Source of the DNA: Terriglobia bacterium
GTDB lineage: Bacteria; Acidobacteriota; Terriglobia; Bryobacterales; Bryobacteraceae
Direction: 5' to 3'
Length of the DNA stretch: 64,000 bases
NCBI GenBank assembly: GCA_020073145.1
Contig: JAIQFS010000010.1
Location: 1 to 64,000, forward strand
Under the pieces are notes generated by a model. The model had not been told where the DNA came from, searched no databases, and saw only the letters and a program-made list of their open reading frames with translations. Positions 47,272 to 59,483 of this stretch are shown here, one piece after another. The translations under genes were made by a program, and so were the position numbers. Position 1 is the first letter of the stretch. Each line of letters starts with the position of its first letter.

Positions 47272-48807
47272 GTGCTCCTGGATATTGCACGACGGCCCAC
47301 GGCAGAAAACTCCGCGATCCACCTCCATCCCACCGACAACGTGGCGGTGGCCCGCGTACCGCTTTCGACCGGAACGGAACTGCGGGTAGACGGCGTCCGG
47401 GTAGTGACGCTCGATGCGATCCCGGCAGGACACAAAGTCGCGCTGCAGGCGATCGCGCCGGGCGAAATCGTGCGGCGATACGGCCAGTCGATCGGCCGGG
47501 CGGGGATGGCGATCGAGGCCGGGCGGCACGTTCACACCCACAATCTCAGCTTTGCAGAACTGCCGTTACACTACGAGTTCCCTGCCAGTGAGACACCGCT
47601 GCCGGAGCCCGCGCGCAACGTCCCGAGCTTCCTCGGCTATGCGCGCGAGGACGGCCGTGTGGGCACGCGCAACTACATCGCGGTGGTGGCGGCCAGCAAT
47701 TGCGCCGCGCATACGGCCGAGTTGATCGCCCGCAGCTACGCCGGCGAGACGCTGCCTGCGAACGTGGACGGCGTGGTGGCGTTTCCCCATGGCGAAGGCT
47801 GCGGCCACGCCTTCGGGCCGGATGTGGATCAACTGCGCCGCACCCTGAGCGGTGTGTTGATGCATCCCAACGTGTCGGCGGCCGTCATCCTGGGGCTGGG
47901 GTGCGAGGTCAACCAGATCGACCATTACCTCGGCTCGGGAAGTCCGCGCAGCGGACGGCTGGCAGGCCTGACGTTGCAATCGAGCGGCGGCACACGCGGC
48001 GCCACTGACGCAGCGCGCCGCGAGATCGCCCGCTTCATGGAGCAAGCCGCCGCCGAATCCCGCACCGCCGCGCCCGTGTCCAAGATCGTGCTGGGGCTGA
48101 ATTGCGGCGGTTCGGATTCGTTTTCGGGCATCACGGCCAATCCCGCACTCGGCCACTGTTCCGACCTGTTGGCCGGCTATCGGGGCGCGCCGGTGCTCGC
48201 TGAAACCACCGAGATCTTCGGTGCCGAGTACCTGCTTGTGAAACGCTCCAAGAATCGACAGGTTGCTGAAAAACTATTGAGTTGCATCGAACATTACAAG
48301 CGATACTTGAAGCGGTTCGAAGGCAGCTTTGACGACAACCCCACGCCCGGAAACAAGGCCGGCGGCCTGAGCAACATTCTCGAAAAATCGCTAGGGGCAG
48401 TGGCCAAGGGCGGTGCCTCGCCGCTGGTGGATGTCTACGAATACGCCGAGCGCATCACGGCTCCCGGCTTCTGTTTCATGAACACACCCGGGTACGATCC
48501 GGTATCGCTCACCGGCCTGGCGGCCGGCGGCTGCAACCTGATCGCGTTCACCACCGGCCGCGGGAGCGCCATCGGCTTCCCAACCGTTCCGGTGATCAAG
48601 ATCGCGACCAATAGCGCCACCTTCCGCCAGATGTCCGACAACATGGACGTCAACGCCGGCGCCATCGCCGACGGCGAAAAGACCGTGCCGGAAGTCGGCC
48701 GCGCCATTTTCGATCTGTTACTGGAAGTAGCCTCGGGCCGCCGCACCGGCGCGGAGCGCCTGGGCCATCAGGAATTCGTCCCGTGGCGGATTGGGCCGGT
48801 GATGTGA
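47272..48807 (+). CDS. UxaA-family altronate/galactarate-type dehydratase
   Basis: 511 residues. An N-terminal SAF domain (HLHPTDNVAVARVPL to RAGMAIEAGRHVHTHNL) precedes the large catalytic domain with GYAREDGRVGTRNYIAVV, FPHGEGCGHAFG, LGCEVNQID, LNCGGSDSFSGITANPA and the C-terminal NMDVNAGAIADGEKT. Full-length UxaA acts on D-altronate; close relatives dehydrate other sugar acids. No other hexuronate genes lie nearby. GGAG is present but only 2 bases before GTG. Confidence 0.88.
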   Translation: MLLDIARRPTAENSAIHLHPTDNVAVARVPLSTGTELRVDGVRVVTLDAIPAGHKVALQAIAPGEIVRRYGQSIGRAGMAIEAGRHVHTHNLSFAELPLHYEFPASETPLPEPARNVPSFLGYAREDGRVGTRNYIAVVAASNCAAHTAELIARSYAGETLPANVDGVVAFPHGEGCGHAFGPDVDQLRRTLSGVLMHPNVSAAVILGLGCEVNQIDHYLGSGSPRSGRLAGLTLQSSGGTRGATDAARREIARFMEQAAAESRTAAPVSKIVLGLNCGGSDSFSGITANPALGHCSDLLAGYRGAPVLAETTEIFGAEYLLVKRSKNRQVAEKLLSCIEHYKRYLKRFEGSFDDNPTPGNKAGGLSNILEKSLGAVAKGGASPLVDVYEYAERITAPGFCFMNTPGYDPVSLTGLAAGGCNLIAFTTGRGSAIGFPTVPVIKIATNSATFRQMSDNMDVNAGAIADGEKTVPEVGRAIFDLLLEVASGRRTGAERLGHQEFVPWRIGPVM

Positions 48808-50162: not shown

Positions 50163-51119
50163 CTACTGCCCGGCTTTTTTCTCATCGGCGCGCGCGCCGC
50201 GGAGCATGTCCGCCATGGCGTAGTTGCCTTCGTGGCAGGCGTATTCGAAGATTGGGCCTTCGGCACGATTCATCGGAATTTGCGCGGTAAACGGCTTGGT
50301 GAAGGCGGTGGGATCGTCGACGGTAAATTCGTACCGAATCGTATCGGAGTCGGTGCGCGTGAAGCGTTCGATCAATCGCAGGTTCTCGTCGGAGCCGTGG
50401 AAGTTGGTTTTATCCGTGAAATTGGTGGTTTCCACCACCAAGGCATCGCCTTCCCAGTGGCCGCGCGGGTCGCCCATCCACTGCCGGATGTTCTTGGGCA
50501 GGTGAGGACTGCCGTCGGTCGGGATCATTCGCACGTCGTGAATCATCTCCACCAGGATAGCCACGTAACCGGGACCCTGCACAATCTGGTAGTTGTTGTT
50601 ATAAAAACTCGGCATCATGGGAGGACCGGCGGTCGGCCACAAGAGACAACGCTCGGCCAACGAACGGTCCTCGGGGCCATCGGTGGGGTGCTGCCGCGCT
50701 CCGGCGCGGGAGGCCTGGAGCCGCTGTGCCGCCTGCGGCGTCAACGCCGGCACGAGTCCGTCGGGCGGATCGACGATCAGCGACGTGCGCCGGGTCTTCA
50801 CCACTTTCGTGCCGCGGTCATACCACGCGTTGTTGTAAGCTAGTCCGACATCGGCTTCCGGCGACAGGTTGCTGCGGTTGTCCACGTTGTTCCGAGCCAC
50901 GGTCTGCTTTTCGTACTGCGCGGCCTCCGCCTCGGTGAGGAATGCCTTGCCCGCCAGGTCGGCCGGCCGCTCCAGCGGCGTGATGGTGACATTAGTCCAG
51001 GTGCCCTGCAAGTCGGGATGCCCATCGGCGGTGCGGGGCGCCGTCCCTTTTTTGGGCGTCTGGCCCGACGCGGCCAGCGCCAGCGTCAGCACCACTGTCG
51101 CTCCACCCAGCCTTCGCAT
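50163..51119 (-). CDS. Secreted GHWEGDTLVV-family protein, paralogue 1
   Basis: 318 residues with a signal peptide (ends AASGQ). Family blocks: ADGHPDLQGTWTN, RTSLIVDPPDGLVPALT, NNNYQIVQGPGYVAILVEMIHDVRMIP, QWMGDPRGHWEGDALVVETTNFTDKT, LIERFTR, YEFTVDDPTAFTKPF and FEYACHEGNYAMADMLRGAR. Function unknown. AAGGAG lies 6 bases before the ATG. It is the last gene of the seven-gene operon, 9 bases after paralogue 2. The conserved histidine, glutamate and aspartates in GHWEGD suggest a ligand or metal site. Confidence 0.8.
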   Translation of the reverse strand: MRRLGGATVVLTLALAASGQTPKKGTAPRTADGHPDLQGTWTNVTITPLERPADLAGKAFLTEAEAAQYEKQTVARNNVDNRSNLSPEADVGLAYNNAWYDRGTKVVKTRRTSLIVDPPDGLVPALTPQAAQRLQASRAGARQHPTDGPEDRSLAERCLLWPTAGPPMMPSFYNNNYQIVQGPGYVAILVEMIHDVRMIPTDGSPHLPKNIRQWMGDPRGHWEGDALVVETTNFTDKTNFHGSDENLRLIERFTRTDSDTIRYEFTVDDPTAFTKPFTAQIPMNRAEGPIFEYACHEGNYAMADMLRGARADEKKAGQ

Positions 51120-51128
51120 GCGTGCTCC

Positions 51129-52106
51129 TTATCTTTGCTTCGATTCTTTTTCTTGTGCGCGGGCTCCGCGCAGAATATCGGTTAGCGCGTAGTTGCCCTC
51201 GTTGCAGGCGTACTCAAACACCGGGCCGTCGCTGCGCGTCATCGGAATCTGCGCGGTCCAGGGATGTGTGAATGCGGTCGGATCGTCCACCGTGAACTGG
51301 TAGTTGATGGTGTCGGCGTTGACACGCGTGAACCGCTCGACCAGGTGCAGGTTCTCATCGGCGCCGCGAAACCGCGTCCGATCCGTGAAGTTGGCGGTGT
51401 CCACCACCAGGGTGTCGCCTTCCCAGTGCCCGCGCGGGTCGCCCATCCACTGCCGGATGTTTTTGGACAGGTGAGGGCTGCCGTCGGCCGGGATCATACG
51501 CGCGTCGTGGATCATCTCCACCAGGATGGCCACCGTTCCCGGGCTCTGCACGATCTGATAGTTGTTGTTATACGGTCCCGGCACCATGGGCGGCCCGGCG
51601 GTTCCCCACAGAATGCAGCGTTCCTGCAGCGACCGGTCTTCGGGACCATCCGCAGGATGGGCCGCCGCGTACGCCCTCGCCTCATCCTGCTGCTTCTGCG
51701 CCGCCGCGGTTAACGCCGGAACGCGGCCGTCTGGCGGATCGATCACCAGCGAGCTCTGCCTGGTGGGCACCACCTTGGTTCCGCGATCGAACCAGAACTG
51801 GTTGTAGTTGCCCGGGTCTCCGGCGCGCGGGGGACGGTCCACTCTTCCTTCCGCGGCCTGCTCTTCCAGCGCCGCCACTTCCGCGTCGCTCAGCACCTTC
51901 TGGCTCGAGAACTGGGTGGGGCGCTCGAAAGGCGTCACCGTCGCGTTGGTCCAGGTTCCCTGCAGATCCGGATGGCCGTCCGGTGTGCGCGGCACGGTCC
52001 AAGCCGGGGCGGGCGTCCTAGCCGCCGGTTTCGAAGCCTGTCCAACCAGCAGCCCTGCCGCCAGCAAGAACGGGGGTAATGCGCCAGGGAGGAACCGGCT
52101 GGACAT
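51129..52106 (-). CDS. Secreted GHWEGDTLVV-family protein, paralogue 2
   Basis: 325 residues from ATG 52106 with a signal peptide (SSRFLPGALPPFLLAAGLLVG). It has the same order of blocks as paralogue 1: TPDGHPDLQGTWTN, SSLVIDPPDGRVPALT, NNNYQIVQSPGTVAILVEMIHDARMIP, GHWEGDTLVVDTANFTDRT, FEYACNEGNYALTDILRGAR. Note ACNEGNY where the others have ACHEGNY. The upstream in-frame extension to 52163 overlaps the preceding gene and is rejected as a start. The 53-base gap upstream is the largest in the operon. Confidence 0.8.
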   Translation of the reverse strand: MSSRFLPGALPPFLLAAGLLVGQASKPAARTPAPAWTVPRTPDGHPDLQGTWTNATVTPFERPTQFSSQKVLSDAEVAALEEQAAEGRVDRPPRAGDPGNYNQFWFDRGTKVVPTRQSSLVIDPPDGRVPALTAAAQKQQDEARAYAAAHPADGPEDRSLQERCILWGTAGPPMVPGPYNNNYQIVQSPGTVAILVEMIHDARMIPADGSPHLSKNIRQWMGDPRGHWEGDTLVVDTANFTDRTRFRGADENLHLVERFTRVNADTINYQFTVDDPTAFTHPWTAQIPMTRSDGPVFEYACNEGNYALTDILRGARAQEKESKQR

Positions 52107-52159
52107 CCAGCCGATCCTGCCGCTCCGTGGTTGCCACCGCAACCACGCGGCGTTTGGTA

Positions 52160-52585
52160 TCACTTCTTGTCCGGCGCCGCTTCCGGAGCGCCTTCGCCCG
52201 GGTTGTTCGAGCCGAGGAACAGCTTGCGGCCATCGGTGAACGTGATGTCTCGTCCGTTGGCGCGGTTCGAGCCGTCCTTGGACTGGTAGCCATCCACCAC
52301 GATCTCCGTGCCCACGGCTAGGGAATCCTTGGTGAAGCCGCGCCGGAGCAATGTGTTGGGCGTGCCGCCTTCGACCATCCAGTTGGTGACCGTGCCGTCC
52401 GGGTTCTTCACGTCAATGTGGATCCAGGCGTGAGGATTGATCCATTCCATCTTCGTGACCTTGCCCTCGATCTTGACCGGTTTTTTGGCGTCAAATTCCG
52501 CGGCGAACGCGTGGTGCGCCCACACCGGCACAGCGGCCAGCAGCAGCGCAGCGCCCGTCATCACAACCGCTAACCTGATTCGCAT
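52160..52585 (-). CDS. Secreted DUF6152-like protein, copy 1
   Basis: 141 residues with a signal peptide (ends VPVWAHH). The mature part reads HHAFAAEFDAKKPVKIEGK, VTKMEWINPHAWIHIDVKN, GGTPNTLLRRGFTKDSL and GTEIVVDGYQSKDGSNRANG, an all-beta OB-like pattern. It matches the DUF6152 family as I recall it. An AGGAGAG site precedes the ATG. It is fifth in the operon, between paralogues 3 and 2. Function unknown. Confidence 0.78.
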   Translation of the reverse strand: MRIRLAVVMTGAALLLAAVPVWAHHAFAAEFDAKKPVKIEGKVTKMEWINPHAWIHIDVKNPDGTVTNWMVEGGTPNTLLRRGFTKDSLAVGTEIVVDGYQSKDGSNRANGRDITFTDGRKLFLGSNNPGEGAPEAAPDKK

Positions 52586-52596
52586 GGCGTCTCTCC

Positions 52597-53613
52597 TTAC
52601 TCCTTCAATTTCGTTGCCGCGTCTTGAGCGGCTCTCTTTTCGTCGGCGCGGGCCCCACGAAGGATGTCCGCCAACGCATAATTTCCCTCATGACAAGCGT
52701 ACTCGAAAATCTGGCCCTCGGCCGGAATCATGGGGATTTCCGCCTTCCACGGCTTCGTGAAGGTTGTCGGATCGTCCACCGTAAACTCGTACCGGATCTC
52801 CTCGGGTCCGACGCGGGTGAAGCGCTCGATCAGGTGCAGGTTCTCGCTTGATCCGCGGAAATTGTCCTTCTCCGAGAAGTTCGTGCTGTCGACCACCAGG
52901 GTATCGCCCTCCCAGTGTCCGCGCGGGTCGCCCAGCCACTGCCGGATACCCGGCGAAACATGCGGACGTCCATCGAGCGGGATGATGCGCGCATCGTGGA
53001 TCATCTCATGCAGAATGGCGACATAGCCGGGGCCCTGGACAATCTGAAAATCGTTATTGTAGGGGCCGGGCAGCATCGGAAGGCCGCGCGTGAGGCAGCG
53101 CTCCCACAGATTGCGGTTCTCGGGGCCGTCGGTGGCATGACCCTGAGCCTGCTCACGGGCATCGGCCAGTCTTTTCTGTGCGGCTGGCGTGAGAGCCGGA
53201 ATTTTTCCGTCCGGCGGATCGACGATCAGCGACGTGCGCCGGCTTCCGATCACCTTGCTGCCGCGGTCGCGCCAGAATTCGTTATACGAGCGGCCGACAT
53301 CAACCTCCGGACCACCGTCGCGCCGATCGCCGGTCTGTTGAGCCACCGTCTGCTTCTCATACGCGGCGGCTTCCTGCTCGGTCAAAAAGGGCTTGTTCGC
53401 CAGGGCGGCCGGCCGCTCGAGCGGCGTGATGGTGGTGTTGGTCCAGGTACCCTGGAGATCGGGCTGGCCATCGGGCGTCCGCGGGGGAGTCCAGGCCTTT
53501 CCCGAGGCCTTCACTTTGGCCGCGGCAGTCTGCGGTTGCGCGCTCGCGGGGCGTGGGATCAGCAACGCAAAGGCGGCGAGCGCGCTCACGGACGCAAGCA
53601 ATCGATGGCCCAT
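52597..53613 (-). CDS. Secreted GHWEGDTLVV-family protein, paralogue 3
   Basis: 338 residues from ATG 53613, with AAGGAGG 6 bases upstream and a signal peptide (ends RPASAQ). Blocks: TPDGQPDLQGTWTNTTITPL, RTSLIVDPPDGKIPALT, NNDFQIVQGPGYVAILHEMIHDARIIP, QWLGDPRGHWEGDTLVVDSTNFSEKD and FEYACHEGNYALADILRGAR. The segment between PENRNLWERCL and LPMLPGP is about three residues shorter than in paralogues 1 and 2. It precedes DUF6152 copy 1 by 11 bases. Confidence 0.8.
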   Translation of the reverse strand: MGHRLLASVSALAAFALLIPRPASAQPQTAAAKVKASGKAWTPPRTPDGQPDLQGTWTNTTITPLERPAALANKPFLTEQEAAAYEKQTVAQQTGDRRDGGPEVDVGRSYNEFWRDRGSKVIGSRRTSLIVDPPDGKIPALTPAAQKRLADAREQAQGHATDGPENRNLWERCLTRGLPMLPGPYNNDFQIVQGPGYVAILHEMIHDARIIPLDGRPHVSPGIRQWLGDPRGHWEGDTLVVDSTNFSEKDNFRGSSENLHLIERFTRVGPEEIRYEFTVDDPTTFTKPWKAEIPMIPAEGQIFEYACHEGNYALADILRGARADEKRAAQDAATKLKE

Positions 53614-53635
53614 GGCTGGCCTCCTTTCGCGGCGG

Positions 53636-54055
53636 CTACTTGCCTTCGTCGGAACCCGGAGTGGCGCCCGGAGCGGATCCGCCCAGGAACAACCGTTTGC
53701 CGTTGGTGAACGTGAGGCTCGCGCCGACCGCCCGATTCGCTCCATCTTTAGCCTGGTAGCCTTCGACGACAATCTCGGTGCCCACGGGCAGCGAGTCCTT
53801 GGTGAAACCGAGCCGGAACAGAGCGTTGGGGCTGCCGCCTTCCACCATCCACTGCACCACTTTGCCGTCCGCGCCTTTGACATCGAGGTGTATCCAGGAA
53901 TGGGGATTGACCAACTCCCACTTGGACACCGTGCCCTGCAATTTCAGCGGCCGGGTTGCATCGAACTCCGCAGCGAAAGCGTGATGCGCCCATGCCGGAG
54001 CCACGGCCATCAGCAGGCCGGCACCGGCAAACAGGACGGCGAGTTTCGTTCGCAT
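53636..54055 (-). CDS. Secreted DUF6152-like protein, copy 2
   Basis: 139 residues with a signal peptide (ends APAWAHH). It is very close to copy 1: HHAFAAEFDATRPLKLQGT, VSKWELVNPHSWIHLDVKG, GGSPNALFRLGFTKDSL and GTEIVVEGYQAKDGANRAVG. The two copies and their downstream paralogues (3 and 2) look like a duplicated two-gene unit. AAGGAG lies 7 bases before the ATG. It follows paralogue 4 by 14 bases. Confidence 0.78.
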   Translation of the reverse strand: MRTKLAVLFAGAGLLMAVAPAWAHHAFAAEFDATRPLKLQGTVSKWELVNPHSWIHLDVKGADGKVVQWMVEGGSPNALFRLGFTKDSLPVGTEIVVEGYQAKDGANRAVGASLTFTNGKRLFLGGSAPGATPGSDEGK

Positions 54056-54069
54056 CGAGATCTCCTTGC

Positions 54070-55065
54070 TTATTTCTTAGCGGCTTCCGCAGCCCTCTGT
54101 TCCAGAGCCCGCTCGCCGCTGAGATTGTTCCGCATGCCGTAGTTGCCCTCCTGGCAGGCGTATTCATAGATGGGGCTGTCGGTCTTGGCCCAGGTGACTT
54201 CCGCCGACCAGGGCGTCGCCCACGTATGCGGATCGTCCACCGTGAACTCGTACTTCAACGTGTCGGCGCTGGTTCGGGTGATGCGCTCGACCACGTGCAA
54301 CGATTCGCTGGAACGCTGCCACGCCGTCTTATCCGTAAAGTTGGTGGTGTCGATTACCAGCGTGTTGCCCTCCCAGTGGCCGCGGGAATCGCCCATCCAC
54401 TGGTGGATATCGGAGGGCAGGTGCGGCCGGCCGTCGGTCGGAATAATGCGCACGTCGTGGATCATCTCCTGCAGGATCGCCACGTAACCCACGCCCTGTA
54501 CGATCTGCACATCACTGTTGTAACCGGGGGAAAGCATGGGCGGTCCTTCATTCGGCCACAAAATGCATCGCTCGCCCAGCGGTCGCGTTTCCGGGCCGTC
54601 CCACTGATGCTCGCGCTGGAAGGCGGCGCGGTCCGCGGCTCGTTTCTGCGCTTCCGGCAGCACCGCCGGAATCCGGCCATCGGGTGTCGTCACCAGCGAT
54701 GTGCGCGTGTCTTCGGCGACTTTGGCGTGGCTGCGATCGAGCCCGAACTGGCTGACGTCATAATGCACCTGCAACTGGCCTTCGGGCTGAGCCGCTGCCC
54801 GCGCGGGACCTGCGCCACGACCGCCCCGTCCCTGGCCGGGCCGCTCCAACGGCACGTTGGTGGCGTTGGACCAGACTCCCGAGAGATCCGGCTGCCCGTC
54901 GGCCGTCTTGGGCGGCGTCCACGGCTTGGCCGATTCCGCGGCTTTCGCCGCCGCGGCGGTCTTCACTACCGAGGAAGGCGCCTGGCCAAAAGAAGGCACG
55001 GCCGACAGGAATGCGACCGCGGGAACGGCCGCCATCAGACTGAGGGAACGAATGGGATGACGCAT
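54070..55065 (-). CDS. Secreted GHWEGDTLVV-family protein, paralogue 4
   Basis: 331 residues with a signal peptide (ends VPSFGQA). It is more divergent in the first half (TADGQPDLSGVWSNATNVPL and a glycine-rich GQGRGGRGAGPAR stretch). It keeps NSDVQIVQGVGYVAILQEMIHDVRIIP, QWMGDSRGHWEGNTLVIDTTNFTDKT and YEYACQEGNYGMRNNLSGER. GHWEGN replaces GHWEGD. AAGGAG precedes the ATG. It lies 16 bases after paralogue 5. Confidence 0.78.
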   Translation of the reverse strand: MRHPIRSLSLMAAVPAVAFLSAVPSFGQAPSSVVKTAAAAKAAESAKPWTPPKTADGQPDLSGVWSNATNVPLERPGQGRGGRGAGPARAAAQPEGQLQVHYDVSQFGLDRSHAKVAEDTRTSLVTTPDGRIPAVLPEAQKRAADRAAFQREHQWDGPETRPLGERCILWPNEGPPMLSPGYNSDVQIVQGVGYVAILQEMIHDVRIIPTDGRPHLPSDIHQWMGDSRGHWEGNTLVIDTTNFTDKTAWQRSSESLHVVERITRTSADTLKYEFTVDDPHTWATPWSAEVTWAKTDSPIYEYACQEGNYGMRNNLSGERALEQRAAEAAKK

Positions 55066-55081
55066 CGGAACGCTCCTTAGT

Positions 55082-55900
55082 TTACGGGTTCACCCGCGGA
55101 TGCTTGCGCAACGGTCCATACAGCAGCTCTTCGACGAACTCCACGCACTTGAATTCCAGAAGCTGTGCATTCTTCTCCACGTGGCGATAGAGCGGCATGC
55201 TGATCTTCCACGGCCGCGAAAAGGTCTTGGAGTCCTCAATGGTGGCTTCGTACATCAACGTGTCGGCGCTGCGGGGCGTGTAGCGCTCCACCACGTGGAG
55301 GGCATCGCTATGGAAATCGCCGGCGCGGTCGAACCAGGTGTCCTCGTTGAAGCCGGTCGCGTCCACCACCAGCGTGTCGCCTTCCCAATGCCCGTTGGAC
55401 CACCCCATCCAGCTGTCGGCCGGAGGCTTGGTGGGTTTGTCCATGTTGATCACGCGGACTCCGCCGGCGTATTCGTAGCTGAACATGATGTTCTTCGAGC
55501 CTTGCACGATCTGAAAGGGATACGGCATATAAGTGGCGCGCGGCACGCCCGGCAGGTAACACTTGACCTCAGGATCCAGCTTCAGCCGGTCGGCAAAGTT
55601 CTGCTTCCTCTTCTCCAAGGCGGCCGGTAGGTAGGGGATGACATCACCCTCGACCACGCCGATCCCGGGAGGAATGGCATCTTCCGCACCCAGCGCCGGC
55701 AGACGGCCCATGCCCGCGGCATGCCCGACCAGATCCCAGTTGGCGGTATTGAGGGCCTGCCAGATGCCGTTGAGATTCGGGTGGCCTTCCCCCGCGCGCG
55801 GTGCGCGGTAGGCGGGCGCTTGCGCCGCGGCCGGCAGCACGGCCAGCACCAACGCGGCAGCCAAGCCTGCCATCTTCCAGCTTTTCATTCCATTTCGCAT
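55082..55900 (-). CDS. Secreted GHWEGDTLVV-family protein, divergent paralogue 5
   Basis: 272 residues from ATG 55900 (or 55888) with a signal peptide (ends LPAAAQ). It is the shortest member: GEGHPNLNGIWQALNTANW, YMPYPFQIVQGSKNIMFSYEY, GWSNGHWEGDTLVVDATGFNEDTWFD, LHVVERYTPRSADTLMYEATIED and FKCVEFVEELLYG, lacking the FEYACHEGNYA end. It heads the operon; a TTGACA-N17-TAATCT promoter lies about 90 bases upstream. The open frame further upstream to 56254 is probably non-coding. Confidence 0.78.
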   Translation of the reverse strand: MRNGMKSWKMAGLAAALVLAVLPAAAQAPAYRAPRAGEGHPNLNGIWQALNTANWDLVGHAAGMGRLPALGAEDAIPPGIGVVEGDVIPYLPAALEKRKQNFADRLKLDPEVKCYLPGVPRATYMPYPFQIVQGSKNIMFSYEYAGGVRVINMDKPTKPPADSWMGWSNGHWEGDTLVVDATGFNEDTWFDRAGDFHSDALHVVERYTPRSADTLMYEATIEDSKTFSRPWKISMPLYRHVEKNAQLLEFKCVEFVEELLYGPLRKHPRVNP

Positions 55901-55991
55901 CGGATTCGAACCCTCCAGCCCTCTGCCAGCGTGCCTTTTCCCCGGGCCGCACTCCCCGAGACGCCATTCAGGACCCAGTAGATCGGTTAAC

Positions 55992-56020
55992 AGATTACAT
56001 TTAAACGGTTTTGATGTCAA
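55992..56020 (-). promoter_or_regulatory. Promoter of the seven-gene GHWEGDTLVV operon
   Basis: On the minus strand TTGACA (56020-56015), a 17-base spacer and TAATCT (55997-55992), preceded by TG. The predicted leader is about 85 bases. The facing promoter at 56221 has the same TGTAATCT block and the same spacing. Confidence 0.6.
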
Positions 56021-56249: not shown

Positions 56250-56319
56250 CTCAATTAATTAGAAGCATAGTTAGAATCCTTGGATTTCGACTGTATCCCT
56301 GGGTCGATGGAAGGCTGTG

Positions 56320-57897
56320 ATGGGCCTGAACTCAATGTCTCGGTTGTCGATAGCCGGATTCTGGATCGCGCTGAACCTCTCCGCTCAGCCCGCTCCCGTG
56401 AAGGTCAGCGGCTCGGTGGTGAACTCGTCGGGCGGCGCCTTGCGCGGAGTTCGCCTCTCCCTCGTTGGGGCAGATCCTAGTCACTTTGAGCCGCCCGCCG
56501 CCGTCACGGAGACGCGCGCCGACGGGACCTTCGTTTTCGAGACGGTTCGGCCGGGCCGGTACCTATTGGAAAAATTGAAAGTCGGATTTGTCTCGGGTTA
56601 CTTCGGTGACGAGCAGGGACGGGACGCCATCGTCCTCCAGGTTCGGCCTGGGGCCGAGATTGCCAACCTGCGCGTCTCCATGGAGGCACTGGCGGAGGCG
56701 GCTTCGGTCTCAGGCCGGGTCACGGACACGAACGGCGTGCCGATTCCGCGACTGTCTGTCCAGCTATTGAAAGACGACTTTTCTCCAGAGGGCGAACAGC
56801 GCAGGTCCTTGGTGAATGGAGCGTCGGCATCCACGGACACCGAAGGATTGTTCCGGCTCGGCGGGATTCCGGCCGGAACGTATTATCTTTCGGCAAAACC
56901 GATTACCCCCTACATGCAACCGGTGACTTCGGAAACCTGGATCGGGGCCTACTACGGAGGCACGTCTCAGATCGAGGACGCTCGACGGATTTCGATAAGC
57001 GCCGGCGAGAACGTGCAGGGTCTGGATCTGCAACTGGTTCGGACTCCCTTGGTCCCTGTCGAAGGCCGGCTCTTGGGCGCTCGTTCCGTGACGACTCTGC
57101 GGATCAACGCGCTGAATGGGGACATCTCCTCGTGGCAAGGTTCGGCGAAAACGGCCGACGATGGTTCGTTCCGTCTGATGACTCCGCCCGGCAGTTACAT
57201 ACTCAGTGCGTTCGAGGAGGTTAGCGGGAAAATCGTCATCGCCGTTCCTCCCGGAGGCATTACCGGCGTCAGCGTTCCAGTTCAGCCGGTCCGGCCGCTC
57301 TCGGGACGGGTGAGTACGGAAGATGCCCGTATCGCGGGGATCAGCTTTTCTCTGCAGTCCGCTCCACCCGGCGCCACCAAGAAGAATTCCGGGATTCTCG
57401 ATTCCGCGAATACGTTTTCGATTCCTGGCGTGGGGGCGTGGACCTATTCCCTGATTCCGAACGACTTTCCCGATGGGTGGTACATGGAGAGCGCGCGCCT
57501 GGGAAGCCGGGATGTGCTCGAAAACGGCGTGGATGGCGCTTCGCTTTCTGGAAAAGAATCGCTGGTGGTCACGGTCAAACGCGCGGACAACGAGCTTGCG
57601 GGAACGGTGTTCAGCAATTCACAAGAACCGTTGGCTGGAGCCACGGTAACCATGATTCCCGATTCGCCGCGGCCGCGCCAGCTCTACCTTTACCAGCGGG
57701 TGAGCACCGATCCCAAGGGCCGGTTCGTCTTTGAGAATCTGGCTCCCGGAGCGTACCGCATTCACGCCTGGCAGAGCTTGCCTCGATTCGCCGAGCGCAA
57801 TGAGGAATTCATCGGACCCTACCGGGCTCGTGGAACGCGCGTCGAGGTGGTAAATGGCAGGAAGCAGGACGTCCGCTTGAAGGTGACACCTCGATGA
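56320..57897 (+). CDS. Secreted protein of carboxypeptidase-regulatory-like repeats, A
   Basis: About 525 residues with a signal peptide (SIAGFWIALNLSAQ). It has at least three beta-sandwich repeats of the carboxypeptidase regulatory-like type: VSGSVVNSSGGALRGVRLSL..GTFVFETVRPGRYLL, VSGRVTDTNGVPIPRLSVQLL..GLFRLGGIPAGTYYLSA, and AGTVFSNSQEPLAGATVTMI..GRFVFENLAPGAYRIHAW. Such proteins are numerous in Acidobacteriota and may bind polymers or form cell-surface filaments; no activity is known. The start could be GTG 56317, ATG 56320 or ATG 56335. It overlaps the next gene by four bases. Confidence 0.8.
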   Translation: MGLNSMSRLSIAGFWIALNLSAQPAPVKVSGSVVNSSGGALRGVRLSLVGADPSHFEPPAAVTETRADGTFVFETVRPGRYLLEKLKVGFVSGYFGDEQGRDAIVLQVRPGAEIANLRVSMEALAEAASVSGRVTDTNGVPIPRLSVQLLKDDFSPEGEQRRSLVNGASASTDTEGLFRLGGIPAGTYYLSAKPITPYMQPVTSETWIGAYYGGTSQIEDARRISISAGENVQGLDLQLVRTPLVPVEGRLLGARSVTTLRINALNGDISSWQGSAKTADDGSFRLMTPPGSYILSAFEEVSGKIVIAVPPGGITGVSVPVQPVRPLSGRVSTEDARIAGISFSLQSAPPGATKKNSGILDSANTFSIPGVGAWTYSLIPNDFPDGWYMESARLGSRDVLENGVDGASLSGKESLVVTVKRADNELAGTVFSNSQEPLAGATVTMIPDSPRPRQLYLYQRVSTDPKGRFVFENLAPGAYRIHAWQSLPRFAERNEEFIGPYRARGTRVEVVNGRKQDVRLKVTPR

Positions 57898-59483
57898 ATG
57901 CGTCGCTCCACTTCACCCTGATTCTGTTCCTGGGCAGCGGGCTCCTGAACGCACAGGCACCTCCGGACGATGGCATCGTGGCGGGAATCGTTACCGATCC
58001 TAGCGGGCAGCCTCTTCCGCAAGCAACGGTCACCTTAATGGGGGAAGCCACGCCAGGAAGGTCTCCGATGTCAATGCAGTCGGACCCGCAGGGACACTTC
58101 CAGTTCGAAAAGGTTGCGCCCGGGGGGTATCGACTCACCGGCCAGCGAGCCGGCTATGTGCGGACCCAGTCATGGCGCACACCCGGCGGCGGGGAAGCCG
58201 CCAGCCTTCAGGTCAGCACGAATCGGCCGGTCACGGGTCTCCGAATCGTTCTGATCCGCGCAGCCAGCGTGTCGGGCCGAGTGGTCGATGAATTTGGCGA
58301 TCCGCGGACCGCACTGGTTTCGATCATCATGAAGGCGAACCGATATGGCCGCACGGAGCTTCGCAGAATGGGTAGCGTGCGGTCGGATGACCATGGGGAG
58401 TTCCTGATCGCCGATGCGCCACCCGGGAAATATTATGTCCTGGTGGCGCCGGGTGAACAGGCGGGTACCGCCAGGACGGAAATGTACCTTTCGACGTTCT
58501 TAGGAAACACCACTACGCTGGAGCAGGCCGCTACCGTTGATTTGGATCCGGGCTCGCCGGTCGAGGGACTCACGATCAAGTTGGTGAAGAGTGCTGTGAC
58601 CACCGTACACGGGAAAATGAGAGATGCGCGACTGGGCCAGATGGTGTCGCTGTCGCCCATCGGTCCTCTTGGGGACATCAGCGGCTGGACGGCGCAGACG
58701 CAAAGCGATGGTTCCTTTGTCATCAGTGCGCCACCCGGAGACTATCATTTGGCTGCTGGTCTCCGGATAGGCAATGACTTCCGCGGCTGGATGGACTATC
58801 GAGTGGACCCTGCCGACCATCGGTCCATCGAACTTGCGTTGGATCCTCCGTTCGCGATGAAAGCGCGCGTGGTGTTGGAGAAAGAAAGCCCGAATGAAGA
58901 TCCGCAGCCGCCGGAATTCCCGGCGGTTCGGGTGACCTTGACGCCTCCGGACTTTCCGTTCGCTCGCGTGGCGGCGCGATCCAATGCGAAAGGTGAGATC
59001 GAGTTCCCAAGGCTGCTTCGCACGAAGTATCGGATGGATATTTCCGGGCTGCCGGACGGCGTCTATTTCGCCGGCGTGCGCCCGAATCCGGGGGCGGACA
59101 TCTCGGATGCGCTGGATCTGACCGCCGGCGCGCCAGCCGCGGCGGTTCCAGTGATCGTCCGGGATTCCCCGGGAGCTCTTGCCGGCCGCGTCACCGCCGA
59201 TGACAAACCTTATCCGGCGGCTGTGGTCACGTTGCTTCCGGAACCGGAAAGGCCGGATCAATCGTATTTCTATCGGCGGGTGATCGCCGATGACCACGGG
59301 CAATTCACAATTCCGAACCTGGCTCCAGGGGACTACGTTGCGTACGCCTGGGACGATCTGCCTGCAGATGGAGAAACCGACTCAGAGATCCAGAAACGGT
59401 ATCGGGATCAGGCCTCCCCGATCTCGATCAGGAAGAATTCTTCCTCAAGTGTGACGCTTCCGTTGATTCATTCTGGCGAATAA
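57894..59483 (+). CDS. Secreted protein of carboxypeptidase-regulatory-like repeats, B
   Basis: 529 residues, signal peptide (ends SGLLNAQA). It is a paralogue of the preceding protein with the same repeat order: VAGIVTDPSGQPLPQATVTLM..GHFQFEKVAPGGYRLTG, VSGRVVDEFGDPRTALVSII..GEFLIADAPPGKYYVLV, and AGRVTADDKPYPAAVVTLL..GQFTIPNLAPGDYVAYAW. The start overlaps gene A (ATGA), so the pair is coupled. The last 256 bases recur almost unchanged at 62155-62410. Confidence 0.82.
   Translation: MNASLHFTLILFLGSGLLNAQAPPDDGIVAGIVTDPSGQPLPQATVTLMGEATPGRSPMSMQSDPQGHFQFEKVAPGGYRLTGQRAGYVRTQSWRTPGGGEAASLQVSTNRPVTGLRIVLIRAASVSGRVVDEFGDPRTALVSIIMKANRYGRTELRRMGSVRSDDHGEFLIADAPPGKYYVLVAPGEQAGTARTEMYLSTFLGNTTTLEQAATVDLDPGSPVEGLTIKLVKSAVTTVHGKMRDARLGQMVSLSPIGPLGDISGWTAQTQSDGSFVISAPPGDYHLAAGLRIGNDFRGWMDYRVDPADHRSIELALDPPFAMKARVVLEKESPNEDPQPPEFPAVRVTLTPPDFPFARVAARSNAKGEIEFPRLLRTKYRMDISGLPDGVYFAGVRPNPGADISDALDLTAGAPAAAVPVIVRDSPGALAGRVTADDKPYPAAVVTLLPEPERPDQSYFYRRVIADDHGQFTIPNLAPGDYVAYAWDDLPADGETDSEIQKRYRDQASPISIRKNSSSSVTLPLIHSGE
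59228..59483 (+). repeat. Direct repeat, left copy (3' end of regulatory-like gene B)
   Basis: Matches 62155-62410 without any gap at an offset of 2927 bases, with about 11 differences by eye (roughly 96% identity). Weaker similarity continues about 35 bases past the stop codon. With the right copy it brackets the propeller/cysteine-rich/MauE cassette. Confidence 0.9.

Follow-up and report, generated by a model that had tools for sequence, protein, structure and literature searches.

A seven-gene operon of DUF6152 proteins and a family without a Pfam or NCBIfam model in a Bryobacteraceae bacterium: genomic association, predicted folds and a candidate metal site

We analysed a 64,000-nucleotide stretch of DNA (positions 1 to 64,000 of contig JAIQFS010000010.1, assembly GCA_020073145.1; hereafter the window) from a Terriglobia bacterium of the family Bryobacteraceae. 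The best-matching named loci likewise suggest Bryobacterales in the Acidobacteriota. An earlier note on the window, made from the sequence alone, had described a seven-gene operon in which paralogues sharing a GHWEGDTLVV block, here called W, alternate with DUF6152-like proteins, here called D. All seven open reading frames (ORFs) were verified as real. The order W5-W4-D2-W3-D1-W2-W1, on the minus strand, and the reported gaps of 9–53 bases agree with the ORFs and with our best choice of starts, which leaves 16, 14, 22, 11, 53 and 9 bases between successive genes. The best start is the upper coordinate of each gene line below (ATG 55900 for W5, then 55065, 54055, 53613, 52585, 52106 and 51119); a longer version of the W3 ORF begins within D2.

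55082–55900, minus strand: W5, the operon's first gene, a short-form W of 272 amino acids; counterpart of the short W that opens w-W-D units elsewhere (see below).
54070–55065, minus strand: W4, a long-form W of 331 amino acids (ORF and W-tree clade).
53636–54055, minus strand: D2, a DUF6152 protein of 139 amino acids with a candidate mature N-terminus His-His and an NPH motif (Pfam match and alignment).
52597–53613, minus strand: W3, a long-form W of 338 amino acids from ATG 53613 (ORF and W tree).
52160–52585, minus strand: D1, a DUF6152 protein of 141 amino acids with a predicted oligonucleotide/oligosaccharide-binding (OB) fold, a candidate mature N-terminus His24-His25 and an internal His52 (Pfam match and model).
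51129–52106, minus strand: W2, a long-form W of 325 amino acids from ATG 52106; the modelled W, with a predicted barrel resembling lipocalins and fatty-acid-binding proteins (FABPs) and a GxW motif at residues 50–52.
50163–51119, minus strand: W1, a long-form W of 318 amino acids, the operon's last gene (ORF and W tree).
55992–56020, minus strand: possible promoter by direct reading, TTGACA, 17 bases, TAATCT; the second hexamer agrees in 3 of 6 positions and the site is sub-threshold in the promoter scan.

This operon is the largest of the W/D clusters around the 49 D and 127 W places surveyed in the genome, and W5 belongs to a shorter class of W without part of the N-terminal region. All seven proteins have a charged start and a hydrophobic core, the best 10-residue Kyte-Doolittle mean being 2.25–3.08 as against 1.23–2.03 past residue 45; such signal-peptide-like starts suggest that all seven are exported, as the note had proposed. 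Its strong ribosome sites could be seen by eye, as AGGAG-like sequences, in five of the seven genes, but those of W2 and W5 are weaker. The possible promoter lies about 90 bases upstream of W5; the promoter scan itself gave no site ahead of the operon and one site inside it, which is the chance level.

Both D proteins are true members of DUF6152 (PF19649), a family of unknown function: D1 and D2 scored 123.6 and 115.2 bits against a gathering cut-off of 27 (E values 3.7e-36 and 1.5e-33), and they are 65% identical to each other. The five W proteins of the operon matched nothing in Pfam or NCBIfam. When an alignment of 91 W members was compared with Pfam at E 0.01, a single member matched, as DUF6152, because the alignment includes a D–W fusion (L088; L, G and C numbers are our handles for loci, genomes and contigs). 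Against NCBIfam the same alignment gave only one weak, unrelated match at E 0.0042, and searches of W and D sequences against solved structures returned nothing convincing. Most of the five W proteins do contain the four blocks that the earlier note listed as typical of W, but just part of these is kept in the 91-member alignment. No mention of DUF6152, PF19649 or GHWEGDTLVV was found in the open-access literature searched, a search that most subscription papers fall outside.

Both families are numerous in the genome (6.32 Mb in 88 contigs), which contains 49 DUF6152 ORFs and at least 139 distinct W ORFs, the latter counted in 91 retrieved stretches that surround the 49 D and the 127 W places. 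The W figure is a lower bound because the best 150 of 257 candidates were scored (23 short pieces were left out, giving the 127 places); three of the 139 ORFs are D–W fusions, and three match over just 41–51 model positions. W and D ORFs together span 165,036 bases, or 2.6% of the genome, an overestimate since they were counted from stop to stop. A family with so many ORFs in one genome and no Pfam or NCBIfam model represents a large annotation blind spot in a major soil phylum. At least 16 D were found in both genomes seen of genus g28, in the same family, and also in G219, G321, G067, G150 and G325 of a phylum-wide sample, in which 16 is the top value given; the expansion is thus not unique to the window's genus. 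A 2011 paper deals with duplication in Solibacter (PMC3174227).

An expansion on this scale, with 40–49 D in all five genomes of the genus, no D in 18 of 20 other family genera sampled and one D each in the remaining two, might be expected of surface or extracellular structural or adhesive proteins that multiplied by lineage-specific duplication and have no specific chemistry. The conservation of Cys, Arg and Glu across 91 W and of His across D, together with a recurring gene order and fusions that point to a specific joint function (all described below), makes this explanation distinctly improbable.

The genomic association of D and W is close to certain. Within the genome, 40 of the 49 D have a W no more than 1.5 kb away, against an expected share of at most 7.6%, and for 37 of them such a W is on the same strand. 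Across genomes, D and W occupy exactly the same 19 of 41 (the genome itself and 40 relatives). Among 297 genomes of the phylum, own genome included, 38 have both, two have D only, none has W only and 257 have neither; the two D-only genomes could be misses of W, because the best seven W candidates were scored in most genomes. W counts from these surveys are lower bounds, as 54 candidates (relatives) and 7 (phylum) were scored in the larger genomes. One genome, G037, has neither D nor W while its congeners G036 and G038 have both, suggesting that the two were gained or lost jointly or that the assembly, which is 93% complete, has a gap. The association is far above chance, and the random scatter that would have spoken against the note's proposal was not seen. 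DUF6152 thereby gains a partner for study.

The association is looser from the side of W. A D lies within 1.5 kb at 55 of the 127 W places and is missing from that distance at 72, and of 79 loci collected from named genomes by their similarity to W (the window not counted), 28 contain a D and 51, some of them short contigs, do not. On these counts, W is probably able to act without D.

Where the two occur together, one arrangement recurs, w-W-D, in which a short W is followed on the same strand by at least one long W and then a D; it was found in at least 16 of the 79 loci. This is a minimum, since some D (for example in L129, L141 and L147) fall out of the gene strings. A clear row of short W, long W and D is present in G007; in G013 and G035, two W are followed by D, and the first W scores like the short type. 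One w-W-D unit (L138) lies on a contig labelled Acidimicrobiia, reflecting either cross-phylum transfer or a mis-binned contig.

D and W are also naturally fused: three such fusions occur in the genome itself and three in other loci, of which two carry the labels Gammaproteobacteria and Rariloculus, and there are more within the genus. Together with W–W fusions and fusions of W to a metallo-beta-lactamase fold, these D–W fusions make physical contact plausible. ORFs with two tandem W domains occur in the genome at L176:3962-5566 (C25, 535 amino acids) and L178:3980-5572 (C27, 531 amino acids). A further ORF, L205:5351-7207 (C6), has about 300 residues ahead of its W domain and no Pfam or NCBIfam match over its full length at E 0.001.

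The two D/W units of the operon had been read in the earlier note as a duplicated pair, and our trees do not bear this out. These were quick trees with many weak forks; support is given as values of the Shimodaira-Hasegawa-like approximate likelihood ratio test (SH-aLRT). In the D tree, D2 grouped with the first D of L070, L072 and L077 (a 9-row set, 92) and D1 with L127 (86). In the W tree, where the W3 row started at 53745, 44 residues upstream of the W3 start, W3 grouped with L072_7959 (99) and W1 with L072_10445, L070_6597 and L077_2633 (91); W4 belonged to a clade of 12 rows (99) that includes counterparts from L070, L077 and L127, and W5 to an 18-row clade of nearly all short W (96). W2 was unplaced. 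A recent duplication of a single D–W pair was seen in neither tree. For most of the operon's genes, a separate counterpart could be identified in other Acidobacteriota assemblies. The paralogues therefore appear to be old, and the trees suggest that they have been kept apart and are not recent redundant copies, in line with the note's preference for diverged paralogues over redundancy.

We modelled W2 with AlphaFold2 from 91 sequences (predicted local distance difference test, pLDDT, 87.3; predicted template modelling score, pTM, 0.84). The model has eight strands between residues 182 and 291 and a short first strand at 50–53, which bears the GxW motif; the segment that connects the two is partly helical. 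In a Foldseek search, the sole match under 0.001 was the barrel of a secretory abundant heat-soluble (SAHS) protein (E 7.5e-4). VIA matched the model to chains of FABP, cellular retinol-binding protein and NanoLuc at Z 7.8–8.4, the best being FABP5 (Z 8.4, root-mean-square deviation (rmsd) 3.2, 116 aligned residues), at a level where models without a clear match typically reach a best Z of 7 to 8. No W member of the 91 matched a calycin Pfam family at E 0.01. Calycins are defined by an antiparallel barrel of eight or ten strands and a GxW motif on the first strand, and a conserved Arg packs on its Trp. In W, G50 and W52 are kept in more than 90% of the 91 members and sit on the predicted first strand, which supports the structure match; we thus read W as a lipocalin/FABP-like barrel on borderline evidence. 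W would share with the closest solved chains (SAHS 5xn9 and FABP5 4azq) a barrel in the C-terminal half and the first-strand GxW, but it differs from calycins in having about 130 residues between first strand and barrel, two invariant cysteines and a sequence that matches neither a Pfam family nor a solved chain.

Six positions are invariant in the 91-member alignment (P130, C164, R203, G222, E257 and C301), and G226, W228, G230, T232, L233 and V234 are among others kept in more than 90%, as are the polar residues E197, Y269, E298 and E303. Such strictly kept polar residues, R203 and E257 foremost, would also suit an enzyme. W might then be a barrel isomerase, esterase or similar, joined in some cases to hydrolase-fold domains (below), with D as an OB-fold chaperone or substrate-presenting subunit whose His-His and NPH motifs are structural. 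This is unlikely in our judgement, given that W has no sequence match to a known enzyme family and that a conserved His-His directly past the signal peptide is hard to account for structurally.

An AlphaFold2 model of D1 from 36 sequences (pLDDT 85.7, pTM 0.71) has OB topology, and its best VIA match was PriB (Z 9.7, rmsd 2.5, 81 aligned residues) in a match list full of chains of PriB and single-stranded DNA-binding proteins; for D2, the same fold is assumed from the D1 model. CusF is a small periplasmic copper chaperone with an OB fold and internal His, Met and Trp ligands. D resembles it as a small exported protein with a predicted OB fold, but has a candidate N-terminal His-His instead of internal ligands. 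CusF was not among the 50 best structure matches listed for the D1 model, which excludes nothing.

In the 36 D rows, A23, H25, N50, P51, H52, G64 and W69 are invariant and H24 is kept in more than 90%. His-His follows directly on the signal core in 47 of the 49 D of the genome, preceded by Ala in 46 and Gly in one, and 45 of these 47 satisfy the -3/-1 rule. Thus, D probably matures to a protein with His-His at its N-terminus. In a survey of cleaved proteins, His is the first residue in 2.6% (PMC12537917); the same survey uses N-terminal His to find metal proteins, namely DUF4198, DUF6702 and anglerases, and its main text contains no DUF6152. D appears similar to N-terminal-histidine or histidine-brace proteins, among them lytic polysaccharide monooxygenases (LPMOs), CopC, YcnI/DUF1775, X325, DUF4198, DUF6702 and anglerases, in its export, a His likely exposed by signal peptidase and a second conserved internal His (PMC12537917, PMC10952591). 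It differs in its predicted fold (OB, as against the beta-sandwich in the crystal structure of DUF4198; PMC12537917), in having His-His and not a single His, and in its pairing and fusion with W, and the metal site in D is a candidate one.

The internal His is that of the NPH motif. Among 113 readable distinct D from the genome, other loci and the genus (duplicates dropped; 4 of 117 distinct rows excluded as truncated), His-His and NPH are both kept in 108, and the NPH His is present in 109. Four of the exceptions lack both, three having NPR and one KPG, and one lacks His-His only; none lacks NPH only. The four include L215, a very weak D match (29.5 bits). In an orthologous series of D–W fusions, the G004 member (L269) keeps both motifs, that of G001 (L272) has lost His-His and kept NPH, and those of G000, G002 and G003 (L268, L270 and L271) have lost both, with NPH changed to NPR. 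That loss of His-His tracks loss of NPH fits one shared site, although the tree has about three such changes and the coupling does not reach significance in a comparison of independent pairs (sign test p 0.5). The two motifs offer a direct metal-binding test with one purified protein. This analysis thus adds to DUF6152 a predicted OB fold, the His-His/NPH pairing and a W partner; like the scale of the two families and the predicted fold of W, the conserved His-His start lay beyond the reach of the earlier note.

Four neighbouring families were tested genome-wide for proximity to W and D. Metallo-beta-lactamase-fold genes, picked because this was the most frequent co-directional neighbour among 115 families (8 of 85), lie within 1 kb of W or D in 12 of 50 cases as against an expected share of 4.8% (p 3.4e-6, near 4e-4 after correction for 115 families); 11 of the 12 are on the same strand, and one is itself fused to W. 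In a comparison with 20 random control stretches, none of 20 neighbour queries, which had been picked for recurring near W/D, was significant (metallo-beta-lactamase fold 10 versus 1, p 0.06). Tannase genes were near W/D in 5 of 13 cases, a link that we do not rely on because its p of 0.02 is uncorrected. Two fusions of W to the metallo-beta-lactamase fold are present in the genome.

L196:3503-5506 (C45): W–metallo-beta-lactamase-fold fusion, ORF of 668 amino acids (Pfam and NCBIfam).
L160:2870-4777 (C15): W–metallo-beta-lactamase-fold fusion, ORF of 636 amino acids (NCBIfam alone).

By eye, the HxHxDH-type motif looks degenerate in both. For seven of ten proteins tested, five metallo-beta-lactamase-fold neighbours and both W fusions, the best NCBIfam match was the SoxH-type quinoprotein relay zinc metallohydrolase (TIGR04559/04558); at 52–101 bits against a cut-off of 280, all seven are related to that type but not members. 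One further neighbour (L233) is closer to subclass B3 models.

Our preferred reading, which we hold tentatively, is that W binds small ligands and that D is an N-terminal-histidine metal protein working with W. The operon would then be an exported two-family module. W proteins would be secreted lipocalin/FABP-type barrels with two invariant cysteines, each holding a small ligand that differs by paralogue. D would be an exported OB-fold protein in which signal peptidase frees a His-His N-terminus; this end and the NPH histidine, located in the beta1-beta2 loop, would together hold a metal ion, most likely copper, in the manner of N-terminal-histidine (histidine-brace) proteins. Acting with W, perhaps in direct contact, D may supply metal chemistry for the W-bound ligand or handle a metal–ligand complex, and in some units a metallo-beta-lactamase-fold protein beside or fused to W might then process the ligand outside the cytoplasm, possibly in a catabolic role. 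If so, D would add an OB fold to the N-terminal-histidine metal proteins, and the operon would be a sign that Acidobacteriota have an unrecognised system for handling ligands outside the cytoplasm.

Several results weigh against this proposal. Besides the W without a nearby D, the borderline barrel match and the non-significant coupling of the two motifs, no metallo-beta-lactamase-fold gene was present among the seven flanking proteins scanned at the window's operon, and no copper-handling family appeared in the scans of neighbour proteins or among the 25 neighbour families listed out of 115. Two candidate partners that recur beside W/D were rejected because their genome-wide frequency within 4 kb does not exceed the share of 13.3% given by chance: Oar-like TonB-type outer-membrane proteins (7 of 55 genes, p 0.61) and pyrroloquinoline quinone (PQQ) dehydrogenases (5 of 46 genes, p 0.75). 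These gene totals were reached from 69 and 72 match rows by manual merging of pieces of one gene; two outer-membrane-protein rows and one PQQ row were retained although below the Pfam cut-off.

Siderocalins bind siderophores, and a calycin-like W model beside a candidate N-terminal His-His protein is also compatible with metal capture without catalysis, in which the ligands of the W barrels are metal-loaded small molecules and the role of D is to strip off the metal or store it. Several N-terminal-histidine families are tied to metal transport or capture (PMC12537917, PMC10952591). For capture alone, however, 49 D and at least 139 W ORFs are many, no metal-uptake family was among the neighbour proteins scanned or the neighbour families listed, and the link to hydrolase folds would be left unexplained; we therefore think this version rather unlikely. 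In a bolder form of the preferred reading, D would be an OB-fold redox protein of a new class, with a single metal ion that is probably copper, and would receive its substrates from the W barrels. The w-W-D units, multiplied to at least 49 D and 139 W ORFs in a single genome of a soil acidobacterium, would then make up an extracytoplasmic oxidation system with a role comparable to LPMO or P450 expansions; we consider this quite improbable.

The G+C content of the operon resembles that of its left flank. T-arm-like bases at 55902–55912 (minus strand, just before the W5 start) raised the idea of a tRNA-based integration site, which was rejected because ARAGORN found no tRNA in the window. A DPBB_1 gene lies on the downstream side of the operon and, beyond two small ORFs, so does a plus-strand gene for an altronate/galactarate dehydratase-type protein with GD_AH domains (47272–48807). 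On the other side, a tandem pair of CarboxypepD_reg proteins is encoded on the plus strand at 56317–57897 and 57894–59483, divergent from the operon and overlapping by four bases.

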